Source of the DNA: Selenomonas ruminantium subsp. lactilytica TAM6421
Lineage (GTDB): Bacteria; Bacillota; Negativicutes; Selenomonadales; Selenomonadaceae
Assembly (NCBI RefSeq): GCF_000284095.1
Contig: NC_017068.1
Location: forward strand, 1,364,001-1,428,000
Reading direction: 5' to 3'
Length of the DNA stretch: 64,000 nt
The notes beneath the pieces are model-generated. The model searched no databases, was not told where the DNA came from, and saw only the letters and a list, made by a program, of their open reading frames with translations. A program made the position numbers and the translations under genes. Positions within the stretch are counted from its first letter, which is position 1. Each line of letters opens with the position of its first letter. Below, one piece after another: positions 7,522-55,046 of the stretch.

Positions 7522-8259
7522 ATGGATGTGAGCAATCTCTTTCGTGGGGCTCAGGAATTCAACAAGGAAGAGCCGCAAAATCCCTGTGAGTATGGCCGCA
7601 AGGTCTGGGATGATATGAATGGCAATGCCTTAAAGCAAAATCACAATCTGAGAATTATGTGTATGGGACTTATGGGAGCACTTGTCATTGCAACCATCGG
7701 CAATGTCTATCAGGCAACCCAAAGTACCGTGGAGCCATATATCATCGAGGTGGACAGCACAACAGGTGCCATCCGGAAGGCTGGGGCCATATCGGAAATG
7801 AATTATACGCCGGAAAAGCTGGAGGTAGAGTATTTCCTGGGCAGGTTCATTCAGGATACCCGCAGTCTGCCGGTGGATGCGGAAGTTTACAAGCAGAGTT
7901 GGTATGAGGCCTATGGTTATATGACCAAGGATGCGGCTGCAGCCATGTCTGCTGAAATGGAAAAACAGGATAGAACCGGCGATTTTGGCAAGAAGCGTAT
8001 CAAGGTAACGATCAATTCCATTCTGCCAGTGAATTCAGGCAGTGACTCATATCAGGCCAACTGGACGGAAGAAGTTTGGGATCTTACAACGGGCAGCCAG
8101 AAGACGGTAAAGATGACCGGGATATTCACGATTACCATCATTCAGGGAAAGGATAAGAAATCCCTGATGGAAAATCCCCTGGGCATCTATGTAAAAGACT
8201 TCAGCTGGTCGGAAGAAAATGTGGCAAATGTTTCTAAGGAAAAGGCAGGGGATAAATGA
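7522..8259 (+). CDS. trbF: VirB8/TrbF-type mating pair protein
   Basis: A 245-residue bitopic inner-membrane protein. A cytoplasmic N-terminus of about 45 residues precedes one membrane helix (about 48-66), then a VirB8-like NTF2 fold domain. The family ending NPLGIYVKDFSW is intact, and the start of the periplasmic part (VEPYIIEVDSTTGAIRKAG) is typical of TrbF. VirB8 proteins nucleate the inner-membrane complex and contact VirB10, VirB4 and VirB5. The ATG at 7522 follows AAGGGGGAATAAGGG. The stop overlaps the next gene by 4 bases. Confidence 0.88.
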   Translation: MDVSNLFRGAQEFNKEEPQNPCEYGRKVWDDMNGNALKQNHNLRIMCMGLMGALVIATIGNVYQATQSTVEPYIIEVDSTTGAIRKAGAISEMNYTPEKLEVEYFLGRFIQDTRSLPVDAEVYKQSWYEAYGYMTKDAAAAMSAEMEKQDRTGDFGKKRIKVTINSILPVNSGSDSYQANWTEEVWDLTTGSQKTVKMTGIFTITIIQGKDKKSLMENPLGIYVKDFSWSEENVANVSKEKAGDK

Positions 8260-9284
8260 TGTGGCAGGATTCAAGAAAACGTATTTTGGTATGGGGAATG
8301 CTGGGCGTGCTCATGTTGCCTGCGGGAGCTTCAGCACAGGAAAGTAATGCGAATGCTGAGGTAAAGACAGCGCAGACAGAAACAACGGAAGTGAAAAACA
8401 CCCACGAAAGCCGTAAGGAAAAGGAATTAAAAGAAAGAGTTAAAGTGCTTGAAGCTCAGTTGGAGGAAAAAGCACGGGAACAGCTGGAATTGCAGGCTGA
8501 AGTGGATGATTTAAGCTCCCGGCAAAAGGCCATTGAACGAGGGGATAGTCTCTCGCATGGTTACCCGGCTACCAGCAACTATCTGGTGGAACCTGGCTAT
8601 AACGAAAATGTGGGCTATACTCAGGATGCCATAAATGCCCAGGGAGACAGCACCATGGTATTCAGTTACAGCCCTAGCCAGCTCTATAAAATCTATTGCA
8701 AGCTGAATTATCTGACCGATATTGTGCTGAAGGAAGGGGAACAGATTACCTTTGTGGGTGGTGGTGATACAGGTAAATGGATGCTGGATGCTTCCTCTGT
8801 AGAGGGGACACCCCATATCTATCTGAAGCCCATTGCCAGAGGAGCCAAGACCAATATCATCATCAATACGACACACCATACATATCAGGTGCTTTGTAGC
8901 GAAGGGGATTGGTACAATCCGATTATCAAGTGGTCATATGGCAGTGAAAACATCATGAAGAGTATTGCCGGCCAGAAGGTTATGGACAGAACCGTAAGCG
9001 GCGTTGTGCAGTCGCCGGAGAATTTGTCCTTTGCCTATAGTATCAGGGGCAAGGCAAGCTGGAAGCCTGAGCATGTCTTTGATGATGGCCATAAAACCTA
9101 TATCCGTTTCAGCCGGAATTTCAAGAAGCTGCCGGTGCTCTTTGTAAAGGATAAGGGGCATAAGGAGGCCATGCTGGTGAATTATCATGTTAAGGGCAAT
9201 ACACTGGTGGTGGAGCGCACCTTCAATGAAGCGCAGCTGAGAATGGATGGAGAAATTGTAAGGATTACACGGTCAGGAAAATAA
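8256..9284 (+). CDS. trbG: VirB9/TrbG-type outer-membrane core protein
   Basis: A 342-residue exported protein: a signal peptide ends near residue 28 (MLPAGASAQES), followed by a Glu/Lys-rich coiled-coil stretch (residues 45-85) and the VirB9 domain from about residue 130. Recognisable elements include SPSQLYKIYCKLNYLTDI, IYLKPIARGAKTNIIINT and the C-terminal beta domain (DDGHKTYIRFSRN) that inserts with VirB10 into the outer membrane. The coiled coil before the VirB9 domain is longer than usual. Presence of this gene argues for a host with an outer membrane. Confidence 0.88.
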   Translation: MMWQDSRKRILVWGMLGVLMLPAGASAQESNANAEVKTAQTETTEVKNTHESRKEKELKERVKVLEAQLEEKAREQLELQAEVDDLSSRQKAIERGDSLSHGYPATSNYLVEPGYNENVGYTQDAINAQGDSTMVFSYSPSQLYKIYCKLNYLTDIVLKEGEQITFVGGGDTGKWMLDASSVEGTPHIYLKPIARGAKTNIIINTTHHTYQVLCSEGDWYNPIIKWSYGSENIMKSIAGQKVMDRTVSGVVQSPENLSFAYSIRGKASWKPEHVFDDGHKTYIRFSRNFKKLPVLFVKDKGHKEAMLVNYHVKGNTLVVERTFNEAQLRMDGEIVRITRSGK

Positions 9285-9302: not shown

Positions 9303-10589
9303 ATGAGTGGCATTAAAGAACTTAGGGATGGCCTGGCTAAGAAGATGTCTGCCATGAAGGAAAAGCAGGGTAAGTCCGAGCTTACGAATCCTTCCATGGC
9401 GGAAGGGGTTAATGAGAAGGCATATGGCCTCAGGAAAAAGGTTGTATACGGGATTGTACTGTTCTTGGTCAGCGCTTTTTTGAGCTTTTCGTATTTTGGC
9501 ATGGGTAGTGATGAACCCCAGGAGAAAAAGACGAAACAGACAGATCAGGCTGCCGATGCCAACAATATGGTCAATAGTGACAGGCAGCTGCAGCAAATGA
9601 ATAACCGGGTAAAAAATCCCAATGGCATGAGTCCTGGGGCTGCTCCACCTATGGAAGGCGGAAAAGGGACGAATGGCACGGCCCAGAACAATGCCCGGGG
9701 CAATATGGAAACTGCTGAGCAGGGGAATGGGCAGCGGGGTGCAGACAATAACGCCAGATATCCGGTAATACCGCAGAGAAGTTATAGCGGAAGCTATAGC
9801 AGTCCCTATCCTGTGCCCCTGCCCTTAAATCCGGTGAAGCAGGCTCCGCAGCCCAAAAAGGAAAAAGAAGATTATAGTGCATCCATTGCCTTTGCCGGTG
9901 ATTATGGTAAAGATACGAAATCTGCCGATAAACCTGCGGAAACGAATGAGGCCAATCTGGCCAGTAAAACAGGCCAGCAGGCATTTGCCGGCACTTCCTA
10001 TATGGAATTGACACCAAACAGCCTGCAGGCCGGTACAGTGATACCAGCGGTGCTGCTTACAGGTATCAATACGGATGTGGGCGGTCAGGTAATGGCGCAG
10101 ATTGAAAGCGATGTATATGATTCTTTGACCGGGACGCAGTTATTGATTCCTGCCGGGAGCAGACTGGTGGGAACCATTGGCCAGGGAGCAAAGGAAGGCC
10201 AGAATCGTGTATCTGTATCCTGGCAAACGCTGATTATGCCATCTGGAGGAAGCTATACGTTGGGCGGTTCGATGATCGCTGCCGATATGTCAGGTTATGG
10301 AGGCATCCCGGGACGGGCTCATCACCATAGCGGCAGCCTGCTTAGAAGCGGCTTCTTTACCTCGGCAGTAGCTGCCCTTGGAGCTATTGCCAGCGGCAAT
10401 ACATCAACAACAACAAATACCTATACCGCCGGTCAGCTGGCGGGACAGGGAGCCATGAGCAATCTGATGAATACGGCTTCAGCCCTTATCCAGAAAGGGG
10501 TAAATAATGCCGGAACAACCATTACGGTGGAAGCTGGCAAGGAGTTTATGGTGTATGTGACCATGCCTGTACAGTTCAATCCCTATTAA
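9303..10589 (+). CDS. trbI: VirB10/TrbI-type channel protein
   Basis: A 428-residue protein that should span both membranes: a cytoplasmic N-terminus, a membrane helix near residues 45-62, a long Pro/Asn/Gly/Gln-rich linker (about 75-200), and the C-terminal VirB10 barrel domain. The barrel shows the family pattern AGTVIPAVLLTGINTDVGG, then IPAGSRLVGTIGQG and a closing VYVTMPVQF. VirB10 couples ATP use at the inner membrane to opening of the outer-membrane pore. The ATG at 9303 follows GGGGGAGG. It shares a YSxxIAF motif with the PilP-like protein upstream. Confidence 0.92.
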   Translation: MSGIKELRDGLAKKMSAMKEKQGKSELTNPSMAEGVNEKAYGLRKKVVYGIVLFLVSAFLSFSYFGMGSDEPQEKKTKQTDQAADANNMVNSDRQLQQMNNRVKNPNGMSPGAAPPMEGGKGTNGTAQNNARGNMETAEQGNGQRGADNNARYPVIPQRSYSGSYSSPYPVPLPLNPVKQAPQPKKEKEDYSASIAFAGDYGKDTKSADKPAETNEANLASKTGQQAFAGTSYMELTPNSLQAGTVIPAVLLTGINTDVGGQVMAQIESDVYDSLTGTQLLIPAGSRLVGTIGQGAKEGQNRVSVSWQTLIMPSGGSYTLGGSMIAADMSGYGGIPGRAHHHSGSLLRSGFFTSAVAALGAIASGNTSTTTNTYTAGQLAGQGAMSNLMNTASALIQKGVNNAGTTITVEAGKEFMVYVTMPVQFNPY

Positions 10590-10604
10590 TGGGAGGTGGA
10601 AAAT

Positions 10605-13055
10605 GTGAGTGTAGCAGCAATTGGTGAAGATGCCGAAATAAGATGTCATAAAGTAAAAGTCGTTTTGGTGCTGATGACGATTTTTGCTCTGCTGGGAATG
10701 GAAGCAGCAACCGAGAGCATTGCTTCTGACTGCAACTATGATGACTCTCTGGGAAGATTCCTTATGGTATATGACTATCCCATCTATGGTTTCTGGAATT
10801 ACTGGCTCTGGAGTTATGGCAGGATAGGCACGCTTATACCGGATATAATCCTGCGGGGCGACAGATGGTTCTATGGCTTCCTGCTGGCCGGTGGCCTTAT
10901 GAGTTGTGTCTATATTCGCAATGCCAGACTGCTGATAACCCATGGCTCTGCAAAATGGGCCAGCAGGAAGGATATTGAAAAAGCAGAGCTTACAGGAAAT
11001 ACCGGCGTGATTTTGGGGATAAATCCCTATACACATAAGCTGATGCGGGATGACAGTTCGGCGCATATCCTGCTATTGGCACCCACGAGGTCGGGCAAAG
11101 GCGTATGCGTGATTATTCCTACTTGCCTTACCTGGACACATTCCATCTTTGTAACGGATGTCAAAGGGGAGAACTGGATTAAAAGCGCCGGATACCGGAA
11201 AAAGTATATGGGGCAGAAGTGCATAAAGTTTGAACCCCTGAATAATGATGGCAGTTCTGCCAAATGGAATCCGCTATCGGAAATCCGCATGGAAACACCT
11301 TATGAGGGAAGTGATGTGGATACCATAAGCGGGATACTGGTCAATCCCAAGGGAGAGAATAAGGACGGGGATTATTGGCCGCAGGCTGGTAAGGCGCTGT
11401 TAAAGTCTGCAATAATCCATCACTTGTATTGGTTTAAGCGGGAAAAGAGGCCATTGCCCAATCTGACCAATATCCTGTCTTCAGTATCGAATCTGACGGA
11501 GCTTTTGGCATCCATGGGTTCCTATGCACATATTACCGTAGAAGATTTTTTTCAGAGTCCCAATGTGTTCCAAGTCTGCTATGGAGAAAACTATATCACG
11601 GATTTTTCAGGCTACAATACGGCCTTGTCTGAACTGGCTGGCCGGGAGATACGGTTGACTTCGGTAAATGAATTAAAGGCGGAACTTCGGAATTATTCAC
11701 TGAAGGGTGCGAAAGAGGACAGGCTGGAGAGAAAAATAGCTGCTATGGAAGAGAATCTTGCCGAATTGGAGGAGGAAGAGGAGAAAATATCCAGCAGGCA
11801 GGATGAAGCCGATATGGCCTATGAAGAAGCGGATCTACGGGCAGACGAGGGCAAAGCCAAAGCTGCGGAACTGCGGGAAAAATTAGCCAGAGGCGAAGTT
11901 ACAGCGGAAGAATCCATAGCTGCTGATAATGCGGCCAGTGAACTCATAAAGGAAGCAGCCCACTGCAAACTGATGGCAGATAAGGCCGAGCGGATGATGA
12001 AACAGATTGCCATGCGGAAAGCCGACCTGATGGAACAGATTGACGTGCTGAAAAAGAAGATAGGCGAACTGGAACAGGAAGCAGGCGGTGGAGAGAAGAT
12101 TGATTTTAAGGATGGCGCTAAGCCCTGGTATAAGCTGCTGGTGCATCCCAAGGTACTGGAATGTGCGCAAAGCCTTCTGCCGAAGGTGAAAAGTGCCGGC
12201 GGGGAAATAAGCGGCATTCAGTCAACGGCTGCAACCTGCTTGAATCTGTATCAGGATCCGATTGTACAGGAAAATACCAGTACTTCAGATTTTCTGGTGG
12301 AGGATTTATTAAATCCGGAGCAGACTGTATCCTTCTTTCTGGTAATTCCGCCAAATGATTTGGAAAGGCTTACGCCATTGGTGCGGCTGCTTATAAACAT
12401 GATGCTGAACAGGCTCATCCGGGATATGAAGGATGAGCATATAGCAGGCATAAAACGTCAGCGGCTGCTTATGATGCTTGATGAATTTGCGCAATTCGGC
12501 AAGTTTGAGACCATCGAGACGGCTATGGCGGTCTGTGCAAGTTTTGGTATCAAGATGTGTATTGTGACGCAGACCATCACTCAGCTGTATAAGAGCTATA
12601 CCAAGGATCAGGCGATTATGGGCAACTGCCATACGCAGGTTATGTTTACACCCAATCAGGATGGCGGTGTGACGGCCAAGAATATATCTGATTCCCTGGG
12701 AAAGGAAACCATACTTACGGAAAATAAGAACGATGGTGGTGGCGGCCTGTTCAAGGGAAGTACATCTAAATCCGGTATGGGGCGTAATCTGCTGATGCCG
12801 GAAGAGGTGGCCAAGATGCCCTTTGAACGGGAAATCATCATGTGTGCCAGACATAATCCGATTTACGGAGAGAAGCTCTTATACTTCAACGATAAGCGAT
12901 TCAAGGAGCGGGCGGCTATCCCACCGCCAGTATATAGCGATACCGTAAGAAAAGTAGCTACATTCCGGGATATTGAGGCAATAACAAGACCAATTATGCA
13001 TGATATGCGCTTAGCCCAGGAAAGGGTGCGGCAAGCTCGTTCTGCGGAAATGTAA
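10605..13055 (+). CDS. traG: VirD4/TraG-type coupling ATPase with coiled-coil insertion
   Basis: An 816-residue type IV coupling protein that docks the DNA-relaxase substrate on the channel. Two N-terminal membrane helices (about 18-34 and 88-106) precede Walker A (APTRSGKG, 159-166), and Walker B is LLMMLDEF near residue 622, followed by the FGIKMCIVTQTITQL region of the TraG family. Between them, about residues 358-498, lies an unusual Lys/Glu/Ala-rich coiled coil. Start: the GTG at 10605 is 8 bases after GGGAGG, while the upstream in-frame GTG at 10596 overlaps that site. An IS110 element separates the gene from the rest of the operon. Confidence 0.92.
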   Translation: MSVAAIGEDAEIRCHKVKVVLVLMTIFALLGMEAATESIASDCNYDDSLGRFLMVYDYPIYGFWNYWLWSYGRIGTLIPDIILRGDRWFYGFLLAGGLMSCVYIRNARLLITHGSAKWASRKDIEKAELTGNTGVILGINPYTHKLMRDDSSAHILLLAPTRSGKGVCVIIPTCLTWTHSIFVTDVKGENWIKSAGYRKKYMGQKCIKFEPLNNDGSSAKWNPLSEIRMETPYEGSDVDTISGILVNPKGENKDGDYWPQAGKALLKSAIIHHLYWFKREKRPLPNLTNILSSVSNLTELLASMGSYAHITVEDFFQSPNVFQVCYGENYITDFSGYNTALSELAGREIRLTSVNELKAELRNYSLKGAKEDRLERKIAAMEENLAELEEEEEKISSRQDEADMAYEEADLRADEGKAKAAELREKLARGEVTAEESIAADNAASELIKEAAHCKLMADKAERMMKQIAMRKADLMEQIDVLKKKIGELEQEAGGGEKIDFKDGAKPWYKLLVHPKVLECAQSLLPKVKSAGGEISGIQSTAATCLNLYQDPIVQENTSTSDFLVEDLLNPEQTVSFFLVIPPNDLERLTPLVRLLINMMLNRLIRDMKDEHIAGIKRQRLLMMLDEFAQFGKFETIETAMAVCASFGIKMCIVTQTITQLYKSYTKDQAIMGNCHTQVMFTPNQDGGVTAKNISDSLGKETILTENKNDGGGGLFKGSTSKSGMGRNLLMPEEVAKMPFEREIIMCARHNPIYGEKLLYFNDKRFKERAAIPPPVYSDTVRKVATFRDIEAITRPIMHDMRLAQERVRQARSAEM

Positions 13056-14418: not shown

Positions 14419-14640
14419 GTACATCGCTCCTTGAAGATAGAATTGCAATGGCGAACCATACTCCTCATTGCCGATTCAATCTCCTGTGGGTTGACACGGA
14501 CGCATCTGGAAAGATAGCCCAACCTGCATAAATCGAACAGCTGGGAATGAGAGGATGGTAAACAGACTCGTATACGGACATGTAGGTCCTAGGAGGAATC
14601 CCGTCTAACCATTACCTCACTATTTTACCAGCTTAAACAA
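14419..14640 (-). ncRNA. Candidate bridge-RNA region of the IS110 element
   Basis: The 222 bases upstream of the transposase start carry no coding frame of note but have several possible hairpins. In IS110 elements the non-coding end next to the transposase is known to encode a bridge RNA whose loops pair with donor and target DNA. This stretch is the expected place in this element. Precise ends and loops were not determined. Confidence 0.4.
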
Positions 14641-15096: not shown

Positions 15097-16044
15097 TTGG
15101 CTAAGAAACAGGAAGCGATAAAAAGAGCCCTGGGGACACTTGAATACACTCTGGGCTTTGAGATCATGAATTTTCTGCAGGATAAGGATGTCAATGAGAT
15201 TATCGTAAATCCCGATACGAGGATCTGGGTGGATACTTTCTCGAAAGGGCGGGTGCTAACCGATTATACACTGGACTCAGGAAAGTCTGAGCAGATCATC
15301 TATCAGGTGGCAGACCTGACCAATACAGTGTGTTCCGCCAATAAGCCTACACTGGGAGCAGAATTGCCGGATGGCAGCAGGTTTCAGGGATTCCTGCCGG
15401 ATGTGGTAACTGCTCCGAGTTTCATCATCCGTAAGCACACGGAACGGGAGCTTACCCTTACGGATTACGTTGATGATGGTGTGCTTACGCCAAGACAACG
15501 GGAAATCATACTGGATGCCATCCGAGACAGGAAGAACATCATTGCGGCAGGGGGAACCAAGTCGGGGAAGACCACGTTCCTGAATGCTATTCTGGCAGAA
15601 ATATCCAGAAGCGATGACCGGATCGTGATGCTGGAGGATACCCGGGAACTGAAATGTGCGGCCAGAAATTATCTGTCCCTGAAGGTTACTGAAAACTGCA
15701 GTATGAGCGATCTGCTCCGGGATACTCTGCGGGCCACTCCGGACAGGATTGTGGTGGGAGAAGTCCGGGGAGATGAAGCGCTGGCGCTCCTTGATGCATG
15801 GAATACCGGCCATGATGGCGGCTGCTCCACAGTACACAGCAGTTCTGCCATACTGACGCTCAGGCGTCTGGAACAGCTGGTTTCAAGAGTATCCGTAACA
15901 CCTCAGCAGGAAACCATAGCTGGTGCAGTGGATGTTATTGTGTACCTGAGGCGTAAGGGTACCGGGCGCGTGGTAGAGGAGATACTTTCCATTGATGGCT
16001 ATGATGGAGAAAAAGGCAGATACATAACGCATCCAATGCAATGA
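15097..16044 (+). CDS. trbB: VirB11/TrbB-type secretion ATPase
   Basis: A 315-residue hexameric traffic ATPase. The N-terminal domain ([15 protein letters not shown]) is typical of TrbB. The C-terminal RecA-like domain has Walker [10 protein letters not shown] (152-160), an Asp box ([10 protein letters not shown]), a Walker B-like region ([14 protein letters not shown]) and the His box [10 protein letters not shown]. VirB11 works with VirB4 and VirD4 at the cytoplasmic face to drive pilus assembly and substrate entry. The start is TTG at 15097. It is the last mating gene of block 1; HU follows with its own promoter. Confidence 0.92.
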
Positions 16045-31774: not shown

Positions 31775-31841
31775 TATGCATAGGCAATCTAAAATGTGAC
31801 ATAGAGAAATTTTATCTTATTTGCTAAGGGGGAGAATCATT

Positions 31842-32198
31842 ATGGATGCAAAAGGTTTGGGTAAACAGGTTGTGGCTAAGGGCTGGCAGATGGTAAAGAG
31901 CAACAAGGGAATGCTTATGTACATGGGGCTCATGATGATGTCCAGCCATTGCCTGGCCTCTACCAGCATGCCCTGGGACAGCGGCATTGAAAGCCTGAAG
32001 GCCAACCTTACAGGCCCGCTTCCTAGAGCCGGAGCCGTCATCTCCATTGCCACCGGTGGTGCACTCTATGCCCTGGGGCAGAGTGATGTGTCCCGTATGG
32101 CCATGAAGGGAGCATTTGGTACAGCCATTGCCTGCGGGGCGGCGACTCTTGCCGGACTATTTGGTGCGGACAATGTGTCGGGCTGTTTGTTCTTCTAA
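31842..32198 (+). CDS. trbC: VirB2/TrbC-type pilin
   Basis: This 118-residue protein has the VirB2/TrbC plan: a charged leader, a first hydrophobic stretch (GMLMYMGLMMMSSHCLAST), then two membrane helices (AGAVISIATGGALYAL and FGTAIACGAATLAGLFG). TrbC of RP4 is trimmed and made circular by TraF; the TraF-like peptidase at 5359-5904 is the expected processing enzyme. The pilin forms the extracellular mating pilus. ATG 31842 follows AAGGGGGAG. It heads transfer block 2. Confidence 0.82.
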   Translation: MDAKGLGKQVVAKGWQMVKSNKGMLMYMGLMMMSSHCLASTSMPWDSGIESLKANLTGPLPRAGAVISIATGGALYALGQSDVSRMAMKGAFGTAIACGAATLAGLFGADNVSGCLFF

Positions 32199-32495: not shown

Positions 32496-33506
32496 ATGCT
32501 GGAAGACTATCAGCACGATTACAGCAAAGTGTATTCCTGGCTGTCTTGGGGCGGTCTCATCCTGCCGGAAGTGGTCAGGAATAAAGATGGCTCCCTGATG
32601 GGATTTATCCGGTATGGGCAGCCAGCTGAGACAACTGCAGATGAAATCAGTCTTGATTATCCCAAGGGCTGGGGAATGTGGCTGGATCGTCATCATTTTG
32701 CCGGGGATAATACGGAGACGCTGTGCCTGCTGTGGAATCCAATCCGTAGAGGCAGTAATTTTCCAGCTGTCAACCTGTGTGAAGGTATCTGGCGTGGCAG
32801 CGAAGCAGAGGAAGACTATTTTCGTAAGGTGCTTATGGAGCTAAGCAGAAAAGTGCCGGGAGGTCTGGTGCTGCAACGGGAGCAGATTCTTTCGTATCTG
32901 CAGAGCACGTTGGAAATGCAGTTCTGTGAAGTTACTATGCCTGAAATACCGCTATATTTGGATGCAGTGCTGTCCAAGGATATGGAGTTTAAAGTCTACG
33001 ATCCCCATGGCCGGGACAGAAATAGGTTTACGATTCGTGGCAAAGATATTGCTGTGACCAGCATCAAGGTCAGCCTGCAAGAGAGCAAGCTGGATATGGT
33101 GTTGAAGGCATTCAGGCAGATGGACTACCGGTTTTGCCGTCGTTGCCTCTTTATGCCGGAAGACAATTTGCGGCAGGAACTTAGGAAAATGACAGCCAAA
33201 TGGTGCCCCAAGAGGCAGAGTGTCCGGGACTATATGCTGTCAAAGCAGGCGGGAAGCGGCGGCATGATAAGTGATACGCTGGTTTTTGCGCTGGATAGCG
33301 GGGTGGCCGAAGAATATCACAGGTACATTCGGGAGATTCTGGAAGCAGTGGAGGTGCCCTTTGTGGTGGAAGATTACAACAGCAAGCAATGCTGGTGGGG
33401 GACACTGCCGGGCATGTTCCGTGCTAATGGGAAGATATTGCCCCGCCGGGAAAAGAACTGGCAGGATTTTTTAGGGTTGAAGGGCGTGGAGAAAGCAAGT
33501 GTATAG
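32496..33506 (+). CDS. VirB4 N-domain paralogue lacking the ATPase
   Basis: This 336-residue protein aligns by eye with the N-terminal part of TrbE/VirB4: WLSWGGLILPEVVRNKDGSLMGFIRY corresponds in two parts to LMPYGMLVDVKGTGVAINKNGS of the next gene, and WWGTLPGMFRANG near the end matches WLGSLPGNFHHY. It stops there, right where the VirB4 ATPase domain would begin; no Walker A is present. It overlaps the full VirB4 gene by 8 bases, so the two are made together, perhaps as a hetero-complex. A remnant of duplication is the alternative, but the frame is intact. Confidence 0.7.
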   Translation: MLEDYQHDYSKVYSWLSWGGLILPEVVRNKDGSLMGFIRYGQPAETTADEISLDYPKGWGMWLDRHHFAGDNTETLCLLWNPIRRGSNFPAVNLCEGIWRGSEAEEDYFRKVLMELSRKVPGGLVLQREQILSYLQSTLEMQFCEVTMPEIPLYLDAVLSKDMEFKVYDPHGRDRNRFTIRGKDIAVTSIKVSLQESKLDMVLKAFRQMDYRFCRRCLFMPEDNLRQELRKMTAKWCPKRQSVRDYMLSKQAGSGGMISDTLVFALDSGVAEEYHRYIREILEAVEVPFVVEDYNSKQCWWGTLPGMFRANGKILPRREKNWQDFLGLKGVEKASV

Positions 33507-36003
33507 GCTGGATTTATTCAGGAGAACAGGAAAAAACATTGCCTCGCTGATGCCTTACGGGATGCTCGTGGATGTTAAAGGCACTGGGGTAGCCATCAAT
33601 AAGAATGGATCTTTTATGACTGTGTGGAAATACAGAGGACCAGATTTGGACAGTGCCCTGCAGGAGCATCTGGCAATCATAACGGCACAGCTCAACAGTG
33701 CCCTGATGGTGCTTGGCTCAGGCTGGGTTATTTACATGGAGGCACAACGCCTGCCTGATGCGACCTATGACAAGGATGTGTGCTTTCCCGACGATGTTAC
33801 CAGGCTGATTGACGAGGTGCGGCGTGATAATTTCACGTCGGGCAGATTTTTCTGCTCAGAGTATTATTTTTCCCTGTGCTGGTTGCCGCCAAGTGATAAT
33901 GAAGGCCGCCTGAAATCCATGCTGATTGAAGGCCATGATGAGCATACGGTCACGGTTGAGGAAAACTTGCAGGATTTCATGGAAATGGCCGACAGCTTGT
34001 GCAGGATTTTTGGGGAGCTGGAAATCCCGGCAGAATTGCTGGATGAAGCAGGACTCGCTTCTTATCTCCATAGCTGTGTGTCGGATAACAGGCGCAGGAT
34101 AAGGCCGCCAAAGGATGAGTTCTGCGATGGATATCTCTATGATTCTGATCTTATAGGGGGGAACTCACCAAAACTCGGTGAGAAATACCTGAAGATTGTG
34201 GTTCCCAAGGCTTATCCAAAATCCAGCGTGTTTGGGATGCTCAATAATCTTAACCGGCTGAACTTCCCCTACCGCTGGGTAACAAGATACTATCTGCTGG
34301 ATAAGACCGAAGCAATATCCAAGCTGGATACAAGAAAGACACGCTGGAAGGGTAAGATGGAATATTTCTCGTCCACGGTGAAAAGGCTGATTTTCAATTC
34401 GCCGTCGCAACCCAGTGACATCAATGAAAATGCTGTAGAAAAGGTCGAAGAGGTACAGGAAGCCCTGAGAAGCGTGGATGCCGGGGATGTTGGCTACGGC
34501 TATTATTCTACAGAGGTTATCATTGCGGAAAGAGATTACGAAAGAGCCTGTCTCTATGCCAAGGCAGTAGAGGATGTCTTCAAGAGCCAGATGATGAAGC
34601 CCAAAATTGAGGATGTGGGGGCTGTGGATGCCTGGCTGGGCAGTCTGCCGGGAAATTTCCATCACTACTGCCGCCGTATTTATGCTTCTACAGGAAATCT
34701 CATCCATATGATGCCGCTGTCCGATATCTGGTCAGGACAGCGGCGTAATAAACATCTGGATGGCCCGGCGCTTCTTTATACCAGAAGTGACGGAGCAACG
34801 CCTTTTCGGATGAATCTTCATGTAGGGGATGTAGGCCATACTCTTATCGTGGGCCCCACAGGGGCAGGTAAGAGCGTCCATCTCAATATGATTTCGGCGC
34901 AGTTCAGGAAATATAAGGGGGCGCAGGTGTTTATCTTTGATAAGGGTGGCTCCAGCCGTATCCTTACGGAAGCTGTGGGAGGTAGATATTTCGAGCTGGC
35001 CAGCAGCAAGAATGGCTTGTCATTCCAGCCACTGGCTGATATCGATGACGATGATGAGCGCATGTGGGCTGTGGGCTGGATCACGGATTATCTGGAATCC
35101 GTGCATATGGAAGTAACGCCGGAGATGGGCAAATATATATCAGAGGCTCTGTCATCGATGAAGGCCTTGCCCAAACAGCATCGGACTATGCTTACGCTGT
35201 GTACCAGCATCCAGAATCAGGAATTAAAGACAGCGCTAAGGCCTCTTACGATTGAAGGGGACTATGGTAGCATCTTTGATGCTTCCGCAGATGAACTGGA
35301 TTTTTCCTCCTGGCAGGTATTTGAGATGGAAAGTCTGATGAATAATACGCCCAAGATTGTCGGGACAACCCTGCTGTATATTTTCCATCGGATTGAGGAA
35401 GAGATAAAGCGGGATGACAGACCGTGTCTGCTGGTATTGGATGAAAGCTGGATTTTTTTGGATAATCCTCAGTTCGCATCCAAGATAAGAGAGTGGCTGA
35501 AAGTCCTTAGAAAATCCAATACAGCGGTGGTGTTTGCTACGCAGAGTCTGGCAGATATAGTGGCCAGTCCAATTGTGGCAACGATATTGGAATCCTGCCC
35601 CACAAGAATTTTCCTGCCCAATAAGGACGCTCTGGATGATACCCGTACAGGCAGCGACAAGCCAAGTATGAAAGAGATGTACCAGTCCTTTGGCCTGAAT
35701 GAACAGCAGATTATGATGTTGGCCAAGGCTATTCCTAAACGGGAATATTACTATACCTCGCCTCTGGGAAATCGGATATATTCATTGGACTTAAGCCCTA
35801 TGGAACTGGCATTTTCTGGGGTACGAACCGAGGATTTGCGCATGGCTGAAAAATTTCTGGCGGAGTATGGCAGGGAAAATTTTGCCATAAACTGGCTCCG
35901 CTATAAGGGCTTGGAAGAATATGCCCAGCGGCTGAAGGCAGAAACTTCCGGAAGGCCAGAGGAGCAAACAGAATCAGGGCAGCTGGTAGGAGGAGATGAG
36001 TAA
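33499..36003 (+). CDS. trbE: VirB4/TrbE-type mating ATPase
   Basis: An 834-residue ATPase of the CagE/TrbE group. The N-terminal domain contains INKNGSFMTVWKYRGPDLDS. The C-terminal motor has Walker A GPTGAGKS (about residues 451-458) and Walker B CLLVLDESWIFLD (about 644), then the VVFATQSLADI motif. VirB4 powers pilin extraction and DNA transfer and binds VirB3, VirB8 and VirB11. GTG start at 33499, overlapping the truncated paralogue by 8 bases. Length is normal for TrbE. Confidence 0.95.
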   Translation: MYRLDLFRRTGKNIASLMPYGMLVDVKGTGVAINKNGSFMTVWKYRGPDLDSALQEHLAIITAQLNSALMVLGSGWVIYMEAQRLPDATYDKDVCFPDDVTRLIDEVRRDNFTSGRFFCSEYYFSLCWLPPSDNEGRLKSMLIEGHDEHTVTVEENLQDFMEMADSLCRIFGELEIPAELLDEAGLASYLHSCVSDNRRRIRPPKDEFCDGYLYDSDLIGGNSPKLGEKYLKIVVPKAYPKSSVFGMLNNLNRLNFPYRWVTRYYLLDKTEAISKLDTRKTRWKGKMEYFSSTVKRLIFNSPSQPSDINENAVEKVEEVQEALRSVDAGDVGYGYYSTEVIIAERDYERACLYAKAVEDVFKSQMMKPKIEDVGAVDAWLGSLPGNFHHYCRRIYASTGNLIHMMPLSDIWSGQRRNKHLDGPALLYTRSDGATPFRMNLHVGDVGHTLIVGPTGAGKSVHLNMISAQFRKYKGAQVFIFDKGGSSRILTEAVGGRYFELASSKNGLSFQPLADIDDDDERMWAVGWITDYLESVHMEVTPEMGKYISEALSSMKALPKQHRTMLTLCTSIQNQELKTALRPLTIEGDYGSIFDASADELDFSSWQVFEMESLMNNTPKIVGTTLLYIFHRIEEEIKRDDRPCLLVLDESWIFLDNPQFASKIREWLKVLRKSNTAVVFATQSLADIVASPIVATILESCPTRIFLPNKDALDDTRTGSDKPSMKEMYQSFGLNEQQIMMLAKAIPKREYYYTSPLGNRIYSLDLSPMELAFSGVRTEDLRMAEKFLAEYGRENFAINWLRYKGLEEYAQRLKAETSGRPEEQTESGQLVGGDE

Positions 36004-36006
36004 TTA

Positions 36007-36546
36007 TTGCTGAAAAGACTGCTTATGGTGCTGGTGGGGCTGATGTTTCTGCTGGGTGAGGCTGTGCCGGCCTTTGCCTATGATGATAAAACCATAGTCT
36101 ATGGTGAAGTTGCCGGGCGCATTGGCGAATCAGATGAAGCTGCGTGGATTACAGATGCCATCTTGTATGCGGGAGCTGTATATGGTGTCGATCCACTGCT
36201 GCTCGCATCCGTGATGGAGGCGGAAAGCGGCTTTACAATGGCCAGCACATCCTCTGCCGGGGCTTATGGCTATATGCAGCTTATGCCGGAAACAGCAGCA
36301 AGCCTGGGTGTGGACAGGTATAATCCTTTGGAAAATGTGCTGGGGGGTGCCTCTTATCTGCGGCAGCAGATGGATCATTTTGCTGGTGACGGTGAATACG
36401 GACTGACTGAGGCAGTAGGTGCCTATAACGCTGGCGGCGGGGCGGTAGAAAAATATGGTGGGGTGCCTCCGTATGCGGAAACCATTAACTATGTGGCAAG
36501 GATTGCAGATATTTATGGAAAATTGCTGCAAGAGACGAATTTATAG
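36007..36546 (+). CDS. trbN: Lytic transglycosylase (VirB1/TrbN-type)
   Basis: A 179-residue exported SLT-fold enzyme. A signal peptide ends near residue 23 (AVPAFAYDD). The catalytic Glu lies in ASVMEAESGF and the substrate groove in SAGAYGYMQLMPETAASLGV and AVGAYNAGGGAV. It cuts peptidoglycan to let the mating channel pass. The TTG start at 36007 is 3 bases after the VirB4 stop. A second transglycosylase-like domain is present in the fusion protein at 39465-41258. Confidence 0.9.
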   Translation: MLKRLLMVLVGLMFLLGEAVPAFAYDDKTIVYGEVAGRIGESDEAAWITDAILYAGAVYGVDPLLLASVMEAESGFTMASTSSAGAYGYMQLMPETAASLGVDRYNPLENVLGGASYLRQQMDHFAGDGEYGLTEAVGAYNAGGGAVEKYGGVPPYAETINYVARIADIYGKLLQETNL

Positions 36547-36578: not shown

Positions 36579-37352
36579 ATGAGCAAATTGAAGAAAAGCA
36601 TTGCAGGCGCAATGACCGTGCTGTGTCTTACAAGCCTTGCGCCAAGGGCAGAGGCGGCTGTCCTTGTATATGATGCCCAGAATGTGGAGCAGGCGATAAG
36701 GACAGCCATAACAACGGCCAATATATTGACCAATGAAGAAAAACAGCTGCTCCTGCAAATTTTGAACATGAAGAAGCTGGATGCGAAAAGCCTTATGCGC
36801 TATCTGGACAAAATGACAGCTTTGGAACGATACCCTATGGACGAGCGTGATGGCCAGATTGGGGTACTAGCACCAAAGACAACAACAGATTCGTTCTGGA
36901 GACAGAATTTCCGTAATATCGAGGCTGTCCTGAAGGGCAAGATGACGGTAATGGATGCCTACTATGCCGGGCAGGCGGCCTATAAGGCAGAGGCGGATAC
37001 CAATAATGATACGGTGAAAAATGCCAGACTTACCCAGGATATGACCGAGGATTTATCCAAGCAGGCCATGACCGCATTGGAAGCATCTTCCCAGGCTGAA
37101 GGCAATCTGCAGGCAGTACAGGCGAATACTCAGGTTATGGGTGTGGGGGTTATGTCGATGATTCAGGGCAATAACCTTCTTTCCAGTATGACCGCCGCAC
37201 AGGCTGTAAAGTACCAGAGAGAGCTGCAGGAAGAAGTAACGGCCAAGCGGATCAACGAAAGCACCGCAGAAAAGCTGGCCAAGGCCACCAAGAACTGCGA
37301 GCTTAAAGGCATGAGCTATGAGGCGTTCAGGCAAAAGATGGGTGAGTACTGA
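36579..37352 (+). CDS. trbJ: VirB5/TrbJ-like exported protein
   Basis: A 257-residue protein with a signal peptide (cleavage near residue 26, after RAEAA) and an all-helical mature part, as in TrbJ/VirB5. The segment AEGNLQAVQANTQVMGVGVM matches a similar stretch in the second VirB5-like protein (41255-42079). VirB5 proteins sit at the pilus tip or assist pilus assembly. Its last base overlaps the TrbL start (TGATG). ATG 36579 follows GGGGAGGGAAG. Confidence 0.75.
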   Translation: MSKLKKSIAGAMTVLCLTSLAPRAEAAVLVYDAQNVEQAIRTAITTANILTNEEKQLLLQILNMKKLDAKSLMRYLDKMTALERYPMDERDGQIGVLAPKTTTDSFWRQNFRNIEAVLKGKMTVMDAYYAGQAAYKAEADTNNDTVKNARLTQDMTEDLSKQAMTALEASSQAEGNLQAVQANTQVMGVGVMSMIQGNNLLSSMTAAQAVKYQRELQEEVTAKRINESTAEKLAKATKNCELKGMSYEAFRQKMGEY

Positions 37353-39067
37353 TGAAAAAGATGGGCTGGGTATGTGCGCTTTTGCTGATGGTGCTGATTA
37401 TATGGCCGGATTCTGTTCAGGCCGCTGATTCCAGTGCCCTGGCATGGCGCACACCGCTGATGGATTTGCGGGATAACATTACAGATAAGCTGGTACCGGC
37501 AATCTTGAATATCATGATAGCGGTAACGGGCATCATGATCATGTTCGGCGATAATAATCACCGGCGGCTGCTCAATATTGTGCTGGGGACAGCGATGGCT
37601 GCCCAGATTTTCTATGCCCTCAGGGTGTTTGGCCTGGGGGAAATACTGAATCCTGCCGTGTCTGTGGTGATAAATCCTGTGGATCTAAGTTCCATTCAAA
37701 TCACCGATAATGTGGAGGATTTCAATCCCTTAAGCGGCTTCATGCGGCAGTTTATCCATATCATAGACAATGGCTCTACGGTACTGGTTGGCTATGCGCT
37801 GGAGCTTATGGGATTCCTGGTGGTCATTGATGTGGCCCTGGCTTTGGTGCTTGGCCTTGCTAATGAGGATAAAATCCGGTATATCACCGTTACCGTCCTG
37901 AAGGTTGGCTTTTTCATGTTTCTCATCGAAAACTGGGTGGGAGGCAGCTACCAGATCTGTCATGCTATTATGTCCAGCTTTGAAAAACTGGGATTCCTGG
38001 CATCGGGAACCGGGAATATGTACTTGCCGGACAGCATCGTGAAGAATGGCATGCAGTCCTTCAGTGCCATCTGGAATAATATCTCGCTACTAGGAATGTC
38101 CAGTCTGGGTGCCTTGATTGGCGACCTGTTTATTGCCTTTACTGTTCTCATTACCACATTTCTTACCGGCGTGGAGATGTTCATGGCTAGGATTGAATTC
38201 TGGACGGTATCCTTGATTACTGTCGTGCTGCTGCCCTTTGCCATGCATGAGCGAACCAGTTTTCTGGCGGAAAAGGCCATAGGGGCCGTTTTCTCGCTGG
38301 GCGTAAAGGTGGCCGTTATTGCCTTCCTTACAGCGGTTACCTGTCCGCTGCTGGCCAATTTTTCCAAACAGATAAGCGATCAGGCGGCGGCCAATGAAGA
38401 TCTGCTGGAACTTAGTGCCCTATTGCAGCTGACCTTGGCCTGTCTGGTGGTGTTTATCATGGTGCGGAGGATTCCGCAGCTGGCTCAGGGGCTTATTTCC
38501 GGCAGCCCGTCCCTTACATCCGGTGATTTTTACGATACCATGCCTAATCCCATGCGGGGAACAGCAAGGGCGCTGGCCTTTGCGGGCAGTTCTTATGGTA
38601 CTTATAAGATGGCGACCAATATGGAAGGCGGCGGTACGGCCAGAAAAGCCGATGGCGATACATCCTGGCTGTCGCAGACTACCGGCACCATACGCAATAT
38701 CGCTTCCATTGAGTGGAACCGTCATAATCCATTTTTGGCAGAAGAACGTGAGGCCGAGCAGGGCGTTCGCTATATGTACAGTATGCGGGCTAACAGCCGG
38801 GATATCGATGATACGGCCCATGGCAGAAATGACACCTATGATGAAGAGGGGCATCTGTCCCATGACCATTTATATGCGGCCACAAATTCCCGGAATGGTG
38901 CAACCAATAAGGACGGCACTATCGTGAAGGACAGCCGGGGAACCAATTTGACGCATGGCTGGACACCTGCCCCTAAGACGGATGAGCAGATGTACAGAAA
39001 TTCCTCGGAAAAAATCAATGCCATCTATGACAGCTTCAATCGGAAATTCAACAACAAACGAAAATGA
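37352..39067 (+). CDS. trbL: VirB6/TrbL-type inner-membrane channel protein
   Basis: This 571-residue protein has a signal-like first helix, then several long membrane segments (AILNIMIAVTGIMIMFG, LELMGFLVVIDVALALVLGL, LITVVLLPFAM, LLQLTLACLVVFIMV) and a soluble C-terminal tail of about 170 residues that is rich in Asn, Asp and Arg. This is the TrbL/VirB6 topology; VirB6 forms the DNA passage in the inner membrane. The tail could reach into the cytoplasm or the recipient side. It overlaps trbJ and ends before a perfect terminator. Confidence 0.85.
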   Translation: MKKMGWVCALLLMVLIIWPDSVQAADSSALAWRTPLMDLRDNITDKLVPAILNIMIAVTGIMIMFGDNNHRRLLNIVLGTAMAAQIFYALRVFGLGEILNPAVSVVINPVDLSSIQITDNVEDFNPLSGFMRQFIHIIDNGSTVLVGYALELMGFLVVIDVALALVLGLANEDKIRYITVTVLKVGFFMFLIENWVGGSYQICHAIMSSFEKLGFLASGTGNMYLPDSIVKNGMQSFSAIWNNISLLGMSSLGALIGDLFIAFTVLITTFLTGVEMFMARIEFWTVSLITVVLLPFAMHERTSFLAEKAIGAVFSLGVKVAVIAFLTAVTCPLLANFSKQISDQAAANEDLLELSALLQLTLACLVVFIMVRRIPQLAQGLISGSPSLTSGDFYDTMPNPMRGTARALAFAGSSYGTYKMATNMEGGGTARKADGDTSWLSQTTGTIRNIASIEWNRHNPFLAEEREAEQGVRYMYSMRANSRDIDDTAHGRNDTYDEEGHLSHDHLYAATNSRNGATNKDGTIVKDSRGTNLTHGWTPAPKTDEQMYRNSSEKINAIYDSFNRKFNNKRK

Positions 39068-39148: not shown

Positions 39149-39385
39149 TTAACGGACATATTTGGGATCGTAGCCAAGGCAGTTGCCGTGTTCGTCCCAT
39201 TGCCAGCCATAACCTTCGCCACGGGAGCAATAGCGGCTGAAGGGTGGGCGGCCCCATAGATTATAAAAGAGAAAATCAATGGTGTCGCAGACGGCATAGC
39301 GGATAAGGTGGAAGAAAAATATGCCGCCGAAAAACAGCAGCGCCAGCAAGGCTAAGACTAACAAGATGATCAATAAGATTTTCAT
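39149..39385 (-). CDS. Small membrane protein antisense within block 2
   Basis: This 78-residue product has a long N-terminal membrane stretch (residues 2-30) and an aromatic tail (GYGWQWDEHGNCLGYDP). ATG 39385 is preceded by AGGAGGCAGG. It lies on the minus strand between the TrbL gene and the M23 fusion gene and shares the terminator at 39087-39124. This interrupts block 2 and suggests a later insertion or an independently controlled gene, possibly for exclusion. Function unknown. Confidence 0.6.
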   Translation of the reverse strand: MKILLIILLVLALLALLFFGGIFFFHLIRYAVCDTIDFLFYNLWGRPPFSRYCSRGEGYGWQWDEHGNCLGYDPKYVR

Positions 39386-39464
39386 AATGCCTGCCTCCTG
39401 TATATGTTGGAAAAGGAATAGGATATACTCTCTGATTAGTTTATCACAGGACAAAAGGGATGTG

Positions 39465-41258
39465 TTGCGTAGGATGTTAATAAAGTGGTTAATAATTTTG
39501 CTGATGGCAGTAATGGAGCTCATGGGGCATATTGGTGCAGTAAATGCGGCTCCAGCCTACCATTCCATGATGAATCCTGTGGAAGGGGAAATGGTTGTTA
39601 CTTCTGATTTTGGCTGGCGTACACATCCCATAACTGGAACGCAGAAATTCCATTCCGGGATTGACTTAGGGTACGATTATGGTATGCCCATCCATGCTGC
39701 TTGCGGCGGTACGGTGACAACTGCTGGCTGGGTAAGCGGCTATGGCTATCTGGTGGCCATCGACCATGGTGGCAGCATCGAAACCCTCTATGGTCATAAT
39801 GAGATGCTGACCGTAACTGCAGGCCAGACGGTAAAGATGGGAGAGGTGATTGCCTATGCTGGCTCCACAGGAAATTCCACCGGCCCTCATTGCCATTTTG
39901 AGGTAAGGGTAAACGGGGAGCCGGTAAATCCCTGGGACTGGCTCTCAGGGATGCCACCGTCAGGAGCCGGGGGCATGATGATGGATGAAGACATTGTGGC
40001 TGTAAACTACGATGCCTATTACGATTTTTGCAAGCCTATCCGGGAGATGGAGGAAAAGATTGCCGAGGTTTGCACCAAGGGACTATCTATCATTCAGGAT
40101 AACCTCAGGTGGCTGTTCTGGGCGCTGATGACCATTGATATTGCGATTCAAGGCTTAGGGATGCTTCTTGGGGAGGACAGGAACAGCATTTACATAAGCA
40201 GATGGTTGACAACCAAGTGCATATTCTACGGCTTCCTGACCTATATATTTTGGCATTGGGGAGATTTGGCCAATATCCTGAGGGATTATTTTGTCAGCAT
40301 GGGAGCGTTTGCTACTGGCAATGATTATGCGGCGGCAGGCAAGATACTTTCTGATCCGGCTGCTATTGTGGAAATTGGCGCAAGATATGTAGGCCCAATT
40401 TTTGAATATCTGGGTACCATGTGGGGGATAAGCGTCATGTTTCATTTGCCCACTGTCATTATCTGTATCCTCACGATAATCTGTGTGCTGGCCTGCTTCT
40501 TCTACATTGGCATCATGATTGGCATGGCCTATATCGAGTTTTACTGTACCGCGCTGTTCAGTCTGTTGGGATTCAGCTTTACACCCTTTCAGGGGACGAG
40601 AAGTTTTGGGGCTACAGCCATTACAGGCCTGATAATGAGTACCATAAAGCTGATGGTTATGACAGTAACTGCCCTGTTGCTGGTGGTAGCATTAAAGGAT
40701 TCCGTGCCCAAGGATTATTTTGATACAACAGTCGAATCTGTGGCTGCAGGCGGTAATTTCCAGTCGGTGGAAGAGTTTGCAGCGGCCATCCGTCAGGTGG
40801 AAACAGGAGGCTGTGAAGATCCTTATCATACTCCATCGGCGGATGGATACGGGTATGGAGCCTATCAGATAAGCTACAGCAACTGGGAAAGCTGGTGCGC
40901 AGAGGCCGGTATCAGTCCGGCACCGCCTATGCCATGGCCAGCTGAAGTACAGGACATTGTAGCCAAGCATAAGATGCAGGTGCTTTATGCCCAGTATGGA
41001 AATTGGCATGACGTGGCCATTGTCTGGAATGCAGGCTCAGTGGTGTCCTGGGATGAAGCCTACTGGCAGAAAGTCATTAATAGCGGCGGTACAAGAGTGG
41101 AGAAAACCATTAAGCTCACGGTACTGTTGAAAATGATGCTGGTAGCTATAGCGGCCATGATATTTGGCCATGAGGATTGTAAAGTGATTATGGAACTGTT
41201 TGCCGGACATGGTTTCCGGTTCAAAAGACAGGGAATGATAAGGGGGGTCCGGTTATGA
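39465..41258 (+). CDS. M23 peptidase / membrane channel / transglycosylase fusion
   Basis: A 597-residue protein with three parts. After a signal sequence (cleaved near residue 28) comes an M23 (LytM) peptidase domain with the zinc ligands His63 and Asp67 (FHSGIDLG) and His142/His144 (PHCHFEV). A central VirB6/TrbL-like membrane part (about 205-425) has four or five helices, e.g. TVIICILTIICVLACFFYI. A soluble transglycosylase-like domain follows (about 433-545; IRQVETGG with candidate catalytic Glu, YGYGAYQIS). TTG 39465 follows AAAAGGGA; ATG 39474 is an alternative. It would cut peptide and glycan bonds of the wall at the channel itself. Confidence 0.78.
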   Translation: MRRMLIKWLIILLMAVMELMGHIGAVNAAPAYHSMMNPVEGEMVVTSDFGWRTHPITGTQKFHSGIDLGYDYGMPIHAACGGTVTTAGWVSGYGYLVAIDHGGSIETLYGHNEMLTVTAGQTVKMGEVIAYAGSTGNSTGPHCHFEVRVNGEPVNPWDWLSGMPPSGAGGMMMDEDIVAVNYDAYYDFCKPIREMEEKIAEVCTKGLSIIQDNLRWLFWALMTIDIAIQGLGMLLGEDRNSIYISRWLTTKCIFYGFLTYIFWHWGDLANILRDYFVSMGAFATGNDYAAAGKILSDPAAIVEIGARYVGPIFEYLGTMWGISVMFHLPTVIICILTIICVLACFFYIGIMIGMAYIEFYCTALFSLLGFSFTPFQGTRSFGATAITGLIMSTIKLMVMTVTALLLVVALKDSVPKDYFDTTVESVAAGGNFQSVEEFAAAIRQVETGGCEDPYHTPSADGYGYGAYQISYSNWESWCAEAGISPAPPMPWPAEVQDIVAKHKMQVLYAQYGNWHDVAIVWNAGSVVSWDEAYWQKVINSGGTRVEKTIKLTVLLKMMLVAIAAMIFGHEDCKVIMELFAGHGFRFKRQGMIRGVRL

Positions 41259-42079
41259 GGATATCAAAACATATTGCTGTGGCAGTAACGGCTGTGATCT
41301 TTGTTTTGGGAACAGCAACTTCTGAGGCACATTCAATTCCCGGCGTGGACAGGCCCTACGATCCGGTCAACTATTACAGCCGGGAAAGCATTTCCTATGC
41401 AGATAGCAGGCCGTCGTTCTTTGCTCTGCGTGAGTTGATGCAAGGGGATGTCTATGATTACACGCGACATCTCAAGAGTATACTATTTGGTGATAAGTTT
41501 GAAGGTTGGCTGGCAAATCTTATGGACAGCAATATGCGCTGGCTGCGGGATATGCTGGGGCTGGGAAATAAGAGCAAGACTATTCTGGCCGGGATTGGAA
41601 ATGGTGGCAAGGATTTTGGCATTCCCGACTGGATGTTGGGAGATAAGCTGCTGGTGGATTACGGCAGTAAATGGGTTCGGACAGGGAAGGAAGATGATGG
41701 AAAATATAGCTGGGTAGCCAAAATCCTTGCGGAAGGCATTGAAAATGCCAGAAAGAATCAGGAAGATTTGGATGAGCGCATGGGAACAATGAATGTAATT
41801 CTCAGAAATACGCAGGACGCTGAAGGCAATATGGAAGCCATGCAGTCCGAAACGCAGATGCAGGGACTTATGGATAGTGAGATTGCGCGAAGGGGGCAGC
41901 TGCTGGCTAATCAGGCATTGGTTCAATCAGCTGGTGACCGATTAAGGCTGGATAGGGAGCGGCGTGCTATGCTGGCTGAAGACCGGGTAATGACACTAAA
42001 AATTATGGACAGGAACAACATGACCGAGCAGGACAGGGGTGTGGGGGTAAAGGAGGGGGCCGGATTCAAGGATTTCTAA
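41255..42079 (+). CDS. Second VirB5/TrbJ-like exported protein
   Basis: This 274-residue protein has a signal peptide (MRISKHIAVAVTAVIFVLGT, cleavage after EAH region near residue 26). Its C-terminal half is helical, with AEGNMEAMQSETQMQGLMDS resembling AEGNLQAVQANTQVMG in the TrbJ-like protein at 36579-37352. The N-terminal half is different and Asp/Gly rich. It overlaps the fusion gene by 4 bases and ends block 2. A role at the pilus tip or as partner of the fusion protein is inferred. Confidence 0.6.
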   Translation: MRISKHIAVAVTAVIFVLGTATSEAHSIPGVDRPYDPVNYYSRESISYADSRPSFFALRELMQGDVYDYTRHLKSILFGDKFEGWLANLMDSNMRWLRDMLGLGNKSKTILAGIGNGGKDFGIPDWMLGDKLLVDYGSKWVRTGKEDDGKYSWVAKILAEGIENARKNQEDLDERMGTMNVILRNTQDAEGNMEAMQSETQMQGLMDSEIARRGQLLANQALVQSAGDRLRLDRERRAMLAEDRVMTLKIMDRNNMTEQDRGVGVKEGAGFKDF

Positions 42080-54893: not shown

Positions 54894-55046
54894 ATGTGTG
54901 AAAAGGCGAATAAGCCGGAAGGTCTGGATATTGAGCTCTATGGACAGCGGTGTCAGGAACTGGATTGGCTTACGGCAGAAGAGAAAGAACGGCTTATGAA
55001 TGGGGAGAGGGAAAAGGAGATGACGGAAGATGGCCTGGCAAAGTGA
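54894..55046 (+). CDS. Very small acidic protein before ardC
   Basis: This 50-residue product (MCEKANKPEGLDIELYGQRC at the start) is rich in Glu. GGAGGAGGG lies 8 bases upstream of ATG 54894, and its 3' end overlaps the ArdC gene by 17 bases, which supports real coupled translation. It is divergent from the SSB operon. Family not recognised. Confidence 0.6.
   Translation: MCEKANKPEGLDIELYGQRCQELDWLTAEEKERLMNGEREKEMTEDGLAK

Follow-up and report, generated by a model that had tools for sequence, protein, structure and literature searches.

The window analysed here, a stretch of 64,000 nucleotides from Selenomonas ruminantium subsp. lactilytica TAM6421 (NC_017068.1), encodes a VirB/Trb type IV secretion system (T4SS). 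In its operon, among VirB4, TrbJ-like and other T4SS genes, lies a gene that joins a Peptidase_M23 domain, a TrbL/VirB6 module and a lysozyme-like domain in a single reading frame, on a contig of 3.0 Mb. Its transfer-gene neighbours, in window coordinates, are:

7522..8259, + strand, VirB8 (Pfam 2.3e-36)
8256..9284, + strand, VirB9/CagX (Pfam 8.5e-52)
9303..10589, + strand, VirB10/TrbI (Pfam 6.6e-45)
10596..13055, + strand, VirD4-type coupling protein (Pfam 1.2e-88)
15097..16044, + strand, VirB11-type ATPase (Pfam T2SSE 6.6e-37)
31821..32198, + strand, TrbC/VirB2 pilin (Pfam 2.6e-11)
33499..36003, + strand, VirB4/TrbE ATPase (NCBIfam 1.7e-257)
36007..36546, + strand, separate SLT transglycosylase, VirB1-like (Pfam SLT 9.1e-21)
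36579..37352, + strand, TrbJ-like gene (NCBIfam 2.5e-08, below the curated cut-off)
37352..39067, + strand, first TrbL, without wall enzymes (Pfam TrbL 4.8e-23, TrbC 3.7e-10)
41255..42079, + strand, gene after the fusion, at most weakly TrbJ-like (NCBIfam 0.057, not significant)

Since the operon has both VirB9 and VirB10, the system is a diderm one. The separate transglycosylase gene at 36007-36546, called earlier from the letters alone, is a clear SLT protein. The first TrbL protein starts with a TrbC/VirB2-like stretch (residues 4-83) despite the separate TrbC gene at 31821, and just before the full VirB4 gene a 336-aa ORF (32496-33506) resembles part of the N-terminal half of TrbE/VirB4 (2.1e-19); two other loci (L205, L206) also have a weakly VirB4-like ORF before VirB4. 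Between the genes of the first TrbL and of the fusion lies an opposite-strand 124-aa ORF with a hydrophobic stretch (39149-39523), which takes up the gap, and at other loci inserts of several kilobases separate the two genes. An IS110-type transposase gene (13210-14448) lies between VirD4 and VirB11; elsewhere the window encodes a Mrr-type restriction protein (24675-25658), a protein with SUKH and Imm30 immunity domains (48072-49421) and an ArdC-like antirestriction protein with ArdcN, MPTase-PolyVal and DarA_C domains (55030-56298).

Translation of the fusion gene is likelier to start at the ATG at 39474, although the TTG at 39465 is possible, and the product has 594-597 aa (594 from the ATG). 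Its parts are:

39474..41258, + strand, M23-TrbL-glycosidase fusion gene (ORF and Pfam)
39474..39551, + strand, N-terminal hydrophobic export or anchor helix, residues 1-26 (hydropathy)
39585..39947, + strand, Peptidase_M23 domain, residues 38-158 (Pfam 6e-32; pLDDT mostly >90)
40089..40703, + strand, TrbL/VirB6 module, residues 206-410 (Pfam 3.5e-13; family alignment)
40737..41096, + strand, lysozyme-like (Rpf/SLT-like) domain, residues 422-541 (alignment, model, structure matches)
40800..40802, + strand, codon of Glu443, candidate catalytic residue (Glu in 27/27 members of this slot type)
41097..41255, + strand, last hydrophobic helix and positively charged C-tail, residues 542-594 (hydropathy and charge)

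The M23 domain precedes TrbL, and both score above their Pfam cut-offs: 110.1 bits against 28.7 for Peptidase_M23 and 50.2 against 25.9 for TrbL/VirB6 (PF04610). The original prediction had proposed searches with M23, TrbL and SLT/lysozyme-like profiles; they recover the first two parts, and the third, residues 422-541 taken alone, has no significant Pfam match. The fusion of all three, as predicted, is borne out by Pfam, by the domain model and by its presence in many genomes. An assembly or frameshift artefact was considered as its source and discarded, because the identical domain layout recurs across those genomes. The nearest named relatives are from Selenomonas ruminantium itself (93% over residues 325-594, 95% over 439-594). 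In the copy of strain HD4 (L004, 9980-10810) only residues 325-594 are matched; this copy looks broken, since the preceding DNA is unrelated to the rest of the fusion gene. Compared with an 82% identical relative, the whole gene has a dN/dS of 0.033, at saturated synonymous sites; taken separately, the glycosidase part has a ratio of 0.022 and the TrbL part one of 0.046 (dS >2.5), and in the M23 part dS is too saturated for computing. Judging by these ratios, purifying selection is acting across the whole fusion gene.

The family sample comprises 50 distinct members, the window's included, drawn from searches of the order and the class and from three plasmids after removal of one duplicate; two of the 50, which have no recognised M23 (L222, L223), were included by hand. 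All 50 come from Negativicutes. A search of the order (189 genomes) brought up full-length relatives; its 188 matching genomes include those with plain M23 proteins. Within the class, 65 of 380 genomes matched a profile of TrbL plus glycosidase, a count that takes in plain TrbL and other glycosidases. Across the phylum the same profile, with limited sensitivity, matched 4 of 398 genomes: three have the fusion (all Negativicutes) and the fourth has a plain TrbL in the two loci read. Among 72,556 plasmid records, two were covered to at least 80%, both from Negativicutes, in a search likewise of limited sensitivity. Annotation hides the fusion: of its plasmid-borne relatives, one is named 'peptidoglycan DD-metalloendopeptidase family protein' and another 'transglycosylase SLT domain-containing protein'.

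The M23 domain had been predicted to carry all its zinc ligands, and in the window protein all five active-site residues are indeed present, H60, D64, H108, H139 and H141, that is, HxxxD, HxH and an additional His. By comparison with LytM, we take H108 and H139 to be the catalytic pair and H60, D64 and H141 to be the zinc binders. The motifs HxxxD and HxH also appear in PMC11323569. The full set is kept in 24 of the 50 members (the window's and 23 others). In 18 members Asp stands in place of His108, and one of these is N-terminally cut as well; in four, Cys stands in place of His139; two further members are N-terminally cut and two have no M23. Because so many relatives are without an expected catalytic His, two active enzymes are not a general property of the family; in the window protein itself two working enzymes are plausible, going by its residues. 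One locus (L177, 700-2220) has no glycosidase, and what occupies its M23 position is NlpC/P60-like, scoring 20.2 bits where the cut-off is 23; on this example the N-terminal slot may be exchangeable too.

The third domain is the hardest to place by profile. Searched against PHROGs, the window's copy has no significant match and that of one other member reaches a family of unknown function at 0.0038; a sequence profile search of the PDB returns five matches with E of 0.076-0.89, to two antibody chains, a lysozyme (0.088) and two RpfB entries. Conservation and structure say more. Glu22 of the domain (Glu443 of the protein), a GAYQ motif, two Trp, a Gln and a Tyr are invariant in the 21 aligned members, with GKYQ replacing GAYQ in four more distant ones, and the equivalent of Glu443 is kept in all 27 members with the window's type of domain. 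A domain model built from nine sequences (pLDDT 84.2, pTM 0.78) finds a lytic transglycosylase first in Foldseek, with probability 0.99 but an E of 0.12; lytic transglycosylases rank high, and a few unrelated folds follow further down. VIA-align superposes the model on Cj0843 with Z 9.5 and an rmsd of 2.6 over 101 residues, on Slt with Z 8.7 and on MltE with Z 7.8, and the 50 matches listed are transglycosylases, lysozymes, Rpf proteins, a related chitinase and T7 core proteins, although middling Z values are common with this method, also for helical models, and may reflect a common arrangement. If the first helix is free of gaps, the aligned ranges set Glu22 at Slt 503 and MltE 64, and PDB entry titles list E503Q (Slt) and E64Q (MltE) as inactive mutants. 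By these ranges and by transitive alignments, the candidate catalytic Glu443 lies at the end of the first helix, as in SLT/lysozyme-like proteins. Related proteins of viral contigs match Pfam SLT (7.2e-08) and Transglycosylas (5.6e-10), and their Glu aligns both with Glu22 and with the Glu of SLT proteins. Nine viral contigs (L075-L083) carry the window's kind of lysozyme domain; in the six of these scanned, an M23 match is clear on L083 and weak on L077. The domain is thus modelled with a lysozyme-type fold, closest to lytic transglycosylases. The transglycosylase-like domain with a candidate catalytic Glu was well called: its model is of lysozyme type, its Glu443 is invariant, and a missing groove, the finding that was to count against the call, is not what the model and its transglycosylase matches give.

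Across the family the glycosidase, where present, always follows the TrbL module, and in aligned members it is followed by a last hydrophobic helix; the VirB6 module of the fusion has invariant Asp, Trp, Phe and Tyr residues. What fills the slot varies: the window's Rpf/SLT-like type in 27 of the 50 members, SLT in 13 and two weaker cases (Pfam SLT 1.8e-09 in one; 22.0 bits against a cut-off of 21.3 in the other), a glucosaminidase in four, a phage tail lysozyme (Phage_lysozyme2, 2.1e-16) in one, and no glycosidase in three. On a quick tree of the TrbL module, with long branches, slot content changed at least six times, losses counted; the glucosaminidase form is nested within the window's type together with one SLT form (L208) that does not group with the main SLT clade. 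When profiles are compared, the window's slot type matches the SLT slot weakly (probability 34.8) and the glucosaminidase slot not at all, and we therefore make no claim that the slot domains share an ancestor. That wall glycosidases are the only enzymes recognised in the slot is the strongest argument for taking the window's domain as one too.

Slot content may also bear on the separate SLT gene. Among the 27 loci of the window's slot type, 16 have enough upstream sequence with transfer genes to be assessed; the eleven left out end with the contig or lack upstream transfer genes (L012, L187, L190, L192, L194, L200, L202, L226, L227, L229, L230). A separate SLT gene lies just upstream of TrbJ in 12 of the 16, the window included, flanked on its other side by VirB4 in six of the 12; the other four (L193, L201, L203, L204) have neither a separate SLT gene nor VirB4 in 6-7 kb. 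No separate SLT gene occurs at any of 15 loci with SLT (13/13) or glucosaminidase (two of four assessed) in the slot, in stretches that do contain VirB4. Where the fusion has no glycosidase, a Veillonella plasmid has a transglycosylase gene elsewhere on the plasmid, and L221 and L222 have none in their flanks. The association gives a Fisher's p of 1.6e-05, a value that ignores kinship; on the tree only two contrasts are independent, for which a sign test gives p 0.5 if the four gene-less loci of the window's type are omitted and p 1 if they are counted, and for this reason an exchange between slot and separate gene is a suggestion and not a proof.

Whether both enzymes could reach the wall depends on topology. 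Averaged over the family, the loop before helix 5 has a net charge of +2.2, the glycosidase domain one of -6.3 and the C-tail one of +2.8, a pattern that places the glycosidase outside. The loop between helices 1 and 2, expected to be cytoplasmic and positive, has a net charge of -1.5, which speaks against a periplasmic glycosidase, and a plain helix count could put the domain inside. VirB6 of R388 has seven long helices, five of them mostly hydrophobic, and helices 1 and 2 are the only ones to enter the membrane (PMC9259494); by family homology to it, everything after helix 2 would be periplasmic. The helices are matched to R388 by family only, because a profile search with TrbL found no solved VirB6. 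Of the full-length model (pTM 0.34) only the M23 part is good, and the TrbL/VirB6 part is unreliable; TrbL-query searches of viral contigs found no relatives, so that alignment depth over TrbL is near zero, and for that reason this model was left out of the topology. Charge bias and the R388 structure favour a periplasmic position for both M23 and glycosidase, although the signs are not unanimous. The original prediction was to fall if the enzymes lay on opposite sides of the membrane: most of the evidence puts them on the same side, and the negative helix 1-2 loop and the helix count remain contrary to it.

Each part of the protein has known counterparts. Like VirB6/TrbL proteins (PF04610) such as TrwI of R388, the fusion has a TrbL module scoring above the cut-off and adjoins VirB4, TrbJ and other T4SS genes, but in addition it has an M23 and a lysozyme-like domain, and its operon encodes another TrbL ahead of it. 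PrgK of pCF10, a DELTA-class VirB1, also combines LytM/M23 with a lysozyme-type domain in one membrane-held conjugation protein, but has one membrane helix, an extra CHAP domain and a degenerate LytM, whereas the fusion has a VirB6 carrier with several hydrophobic stretches in its TrbL module, complete M23 residues and no Pfam match to CHAP. That a degenerate LytM can stand next to a working muramidase is known from PrgK (PMC11323569). VirB1 is soluble in Gram-negative systems, and its homologues are membrane-anchored in Gram-positive ones (PMC12857230). GAMMA-class VirB1, a soluble SLT protein, would resemble the fusion in assigning a transglycosylase-type activity to the machine, but is a separate periplasmic protein, whereas the window's glycosidase is fused to TrbL and comes in addition to the gene at 36007-36546. 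Extended VirB6 proteins likewise have large extra hydrophilic domains; in the parts of the reviews covered these have no known role, whereas the extra domains of the fusion are recognisable wall enzymes. The papers drawn on are PMC12857230, PMC12102498, PMC9259494, PMC12624023 and PMC11323569; the portions of reviews covered describe no VirB6-hydrolase fusion, and none appears among the literature matches listed, which comprise titles and abstract openings and mostly leave subscription papers outside. The parts are known, then; in the literature covered, a VirB6 paralogue that unites them and has an exchangeable slot for the glycosidase seems not to have been described.

Probably, the diderm, Trb-like conjugation machine has in the window protein a second VirB6/TrbL subunit, one that carries wall-opening enzymes. 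We infer for this protein a topology, active enzymes, assembly with the first TrbL, a place in the machine and a role in opening the wall, which would combine as follows. The M23 domain would reach the periplasm by means of the N-terminal helix, the VirB6 module would anchor the protein in the inner membrane through its helices 1 and 2, and the lysozyme-like domain, lying before the last helix, would also face the periplasm. Held where the stalk and the pilus start, M23 would cut peptide cross-links and the lysozyme-like domain glycan strands, and the machine would pass the wall at that spot. The original prediction is thereby supported in part: its fusion, its domain names and its separate SLT gene hold, and active enzymes that belong to the channel and cut exactly at it would come with the proposed arrangement. 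The letters alone could not show that the family extends across the class and exchanges its glycosidase, or that many relatives have lost an expected M23 His. With an enzyme-free TrbL encoded beside the fusion, the two could form a mixed platform or divide the labour between them.

The same neighbour also fits another arrangement, in which the TrbL part is a mere anchor, the protein is a membrane-held, PrgK-like VirB1 beside the machine, and the stalk base consists of the first TrbL only. Of the 50 members, 39 have a TrbL ORF free of enzyme domains nearby, the remaining 11 being mostly close to contig ends, and VirB1 proteins of Gram-positive systems are membrane-anchored with several wall domains (PMC12857230, PMC11323569); the whole VirB6 module is conserved, at the dN/dS given above from one comparison, beyond what a single anchor helix needs, and we regard this arrangement as a serious possibility that falls somewhat short of even chances. 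It is rather unlikely that one or both enzyme domains are degenerate in the window protein and bind or regulate, as the degenerate LytM of PrgK may do (PMC11323569): active-site residues of M23 are replaced in 22 of the 50 members, but the window keeps all five, and Glu443 as well.

Opposite placement of the two enzymes, with a glycosidase that cannot reach the wall, is what a plain count with five crossings gives and what the negative helix 1-2 loop would suit; against it stand the three charges that place the glycosidase outside, the R388 VirB6 structure and a slot that holds only wall glycosidases as far as recognised, which together make it improbable. Least probable of all, and by our estimate a long shot, is an attack on the recipient's wall during mating, of the kind that phage tail lysozymes make on the host wall. 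The related domains on viral contigs, some with M23, and the phage tail lysozyme in the slot of one member recall such enzymes, but the predicted hydrophobic helices on both sides of the glycosidase keep the domain in the donor's inner membrane.

If the fusion protein is indeed a second VirB6/TrbL subunit with wall enzymes, VirB6 and wall enzyme in one subunit would tie cutting covalently to the machine. A wider proposal, offered tentatively and with a good chance of being wrong, is that in the conjugation machines of Negativicutes the translocation platform has taken over wall opening: M23 and an exchangeable glycosidase would sit at the stalk base on a VirB6 paralogue dedicated to this role, cutting would be tied to stalk assembly in place and in copy number, and the VirB1 gene would be losable once the slot holds SLT or glucosaminidase. 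The exchangeable slot is in itself a natural domain-swap series. Negativicutes combine Firmicute ancestry with an outer membrane, and the layout of their fusion is intermediate: Gram-positive systems have membrane-anchored enzymes with several domains, and Gram-negative ones a soluble VirB1.
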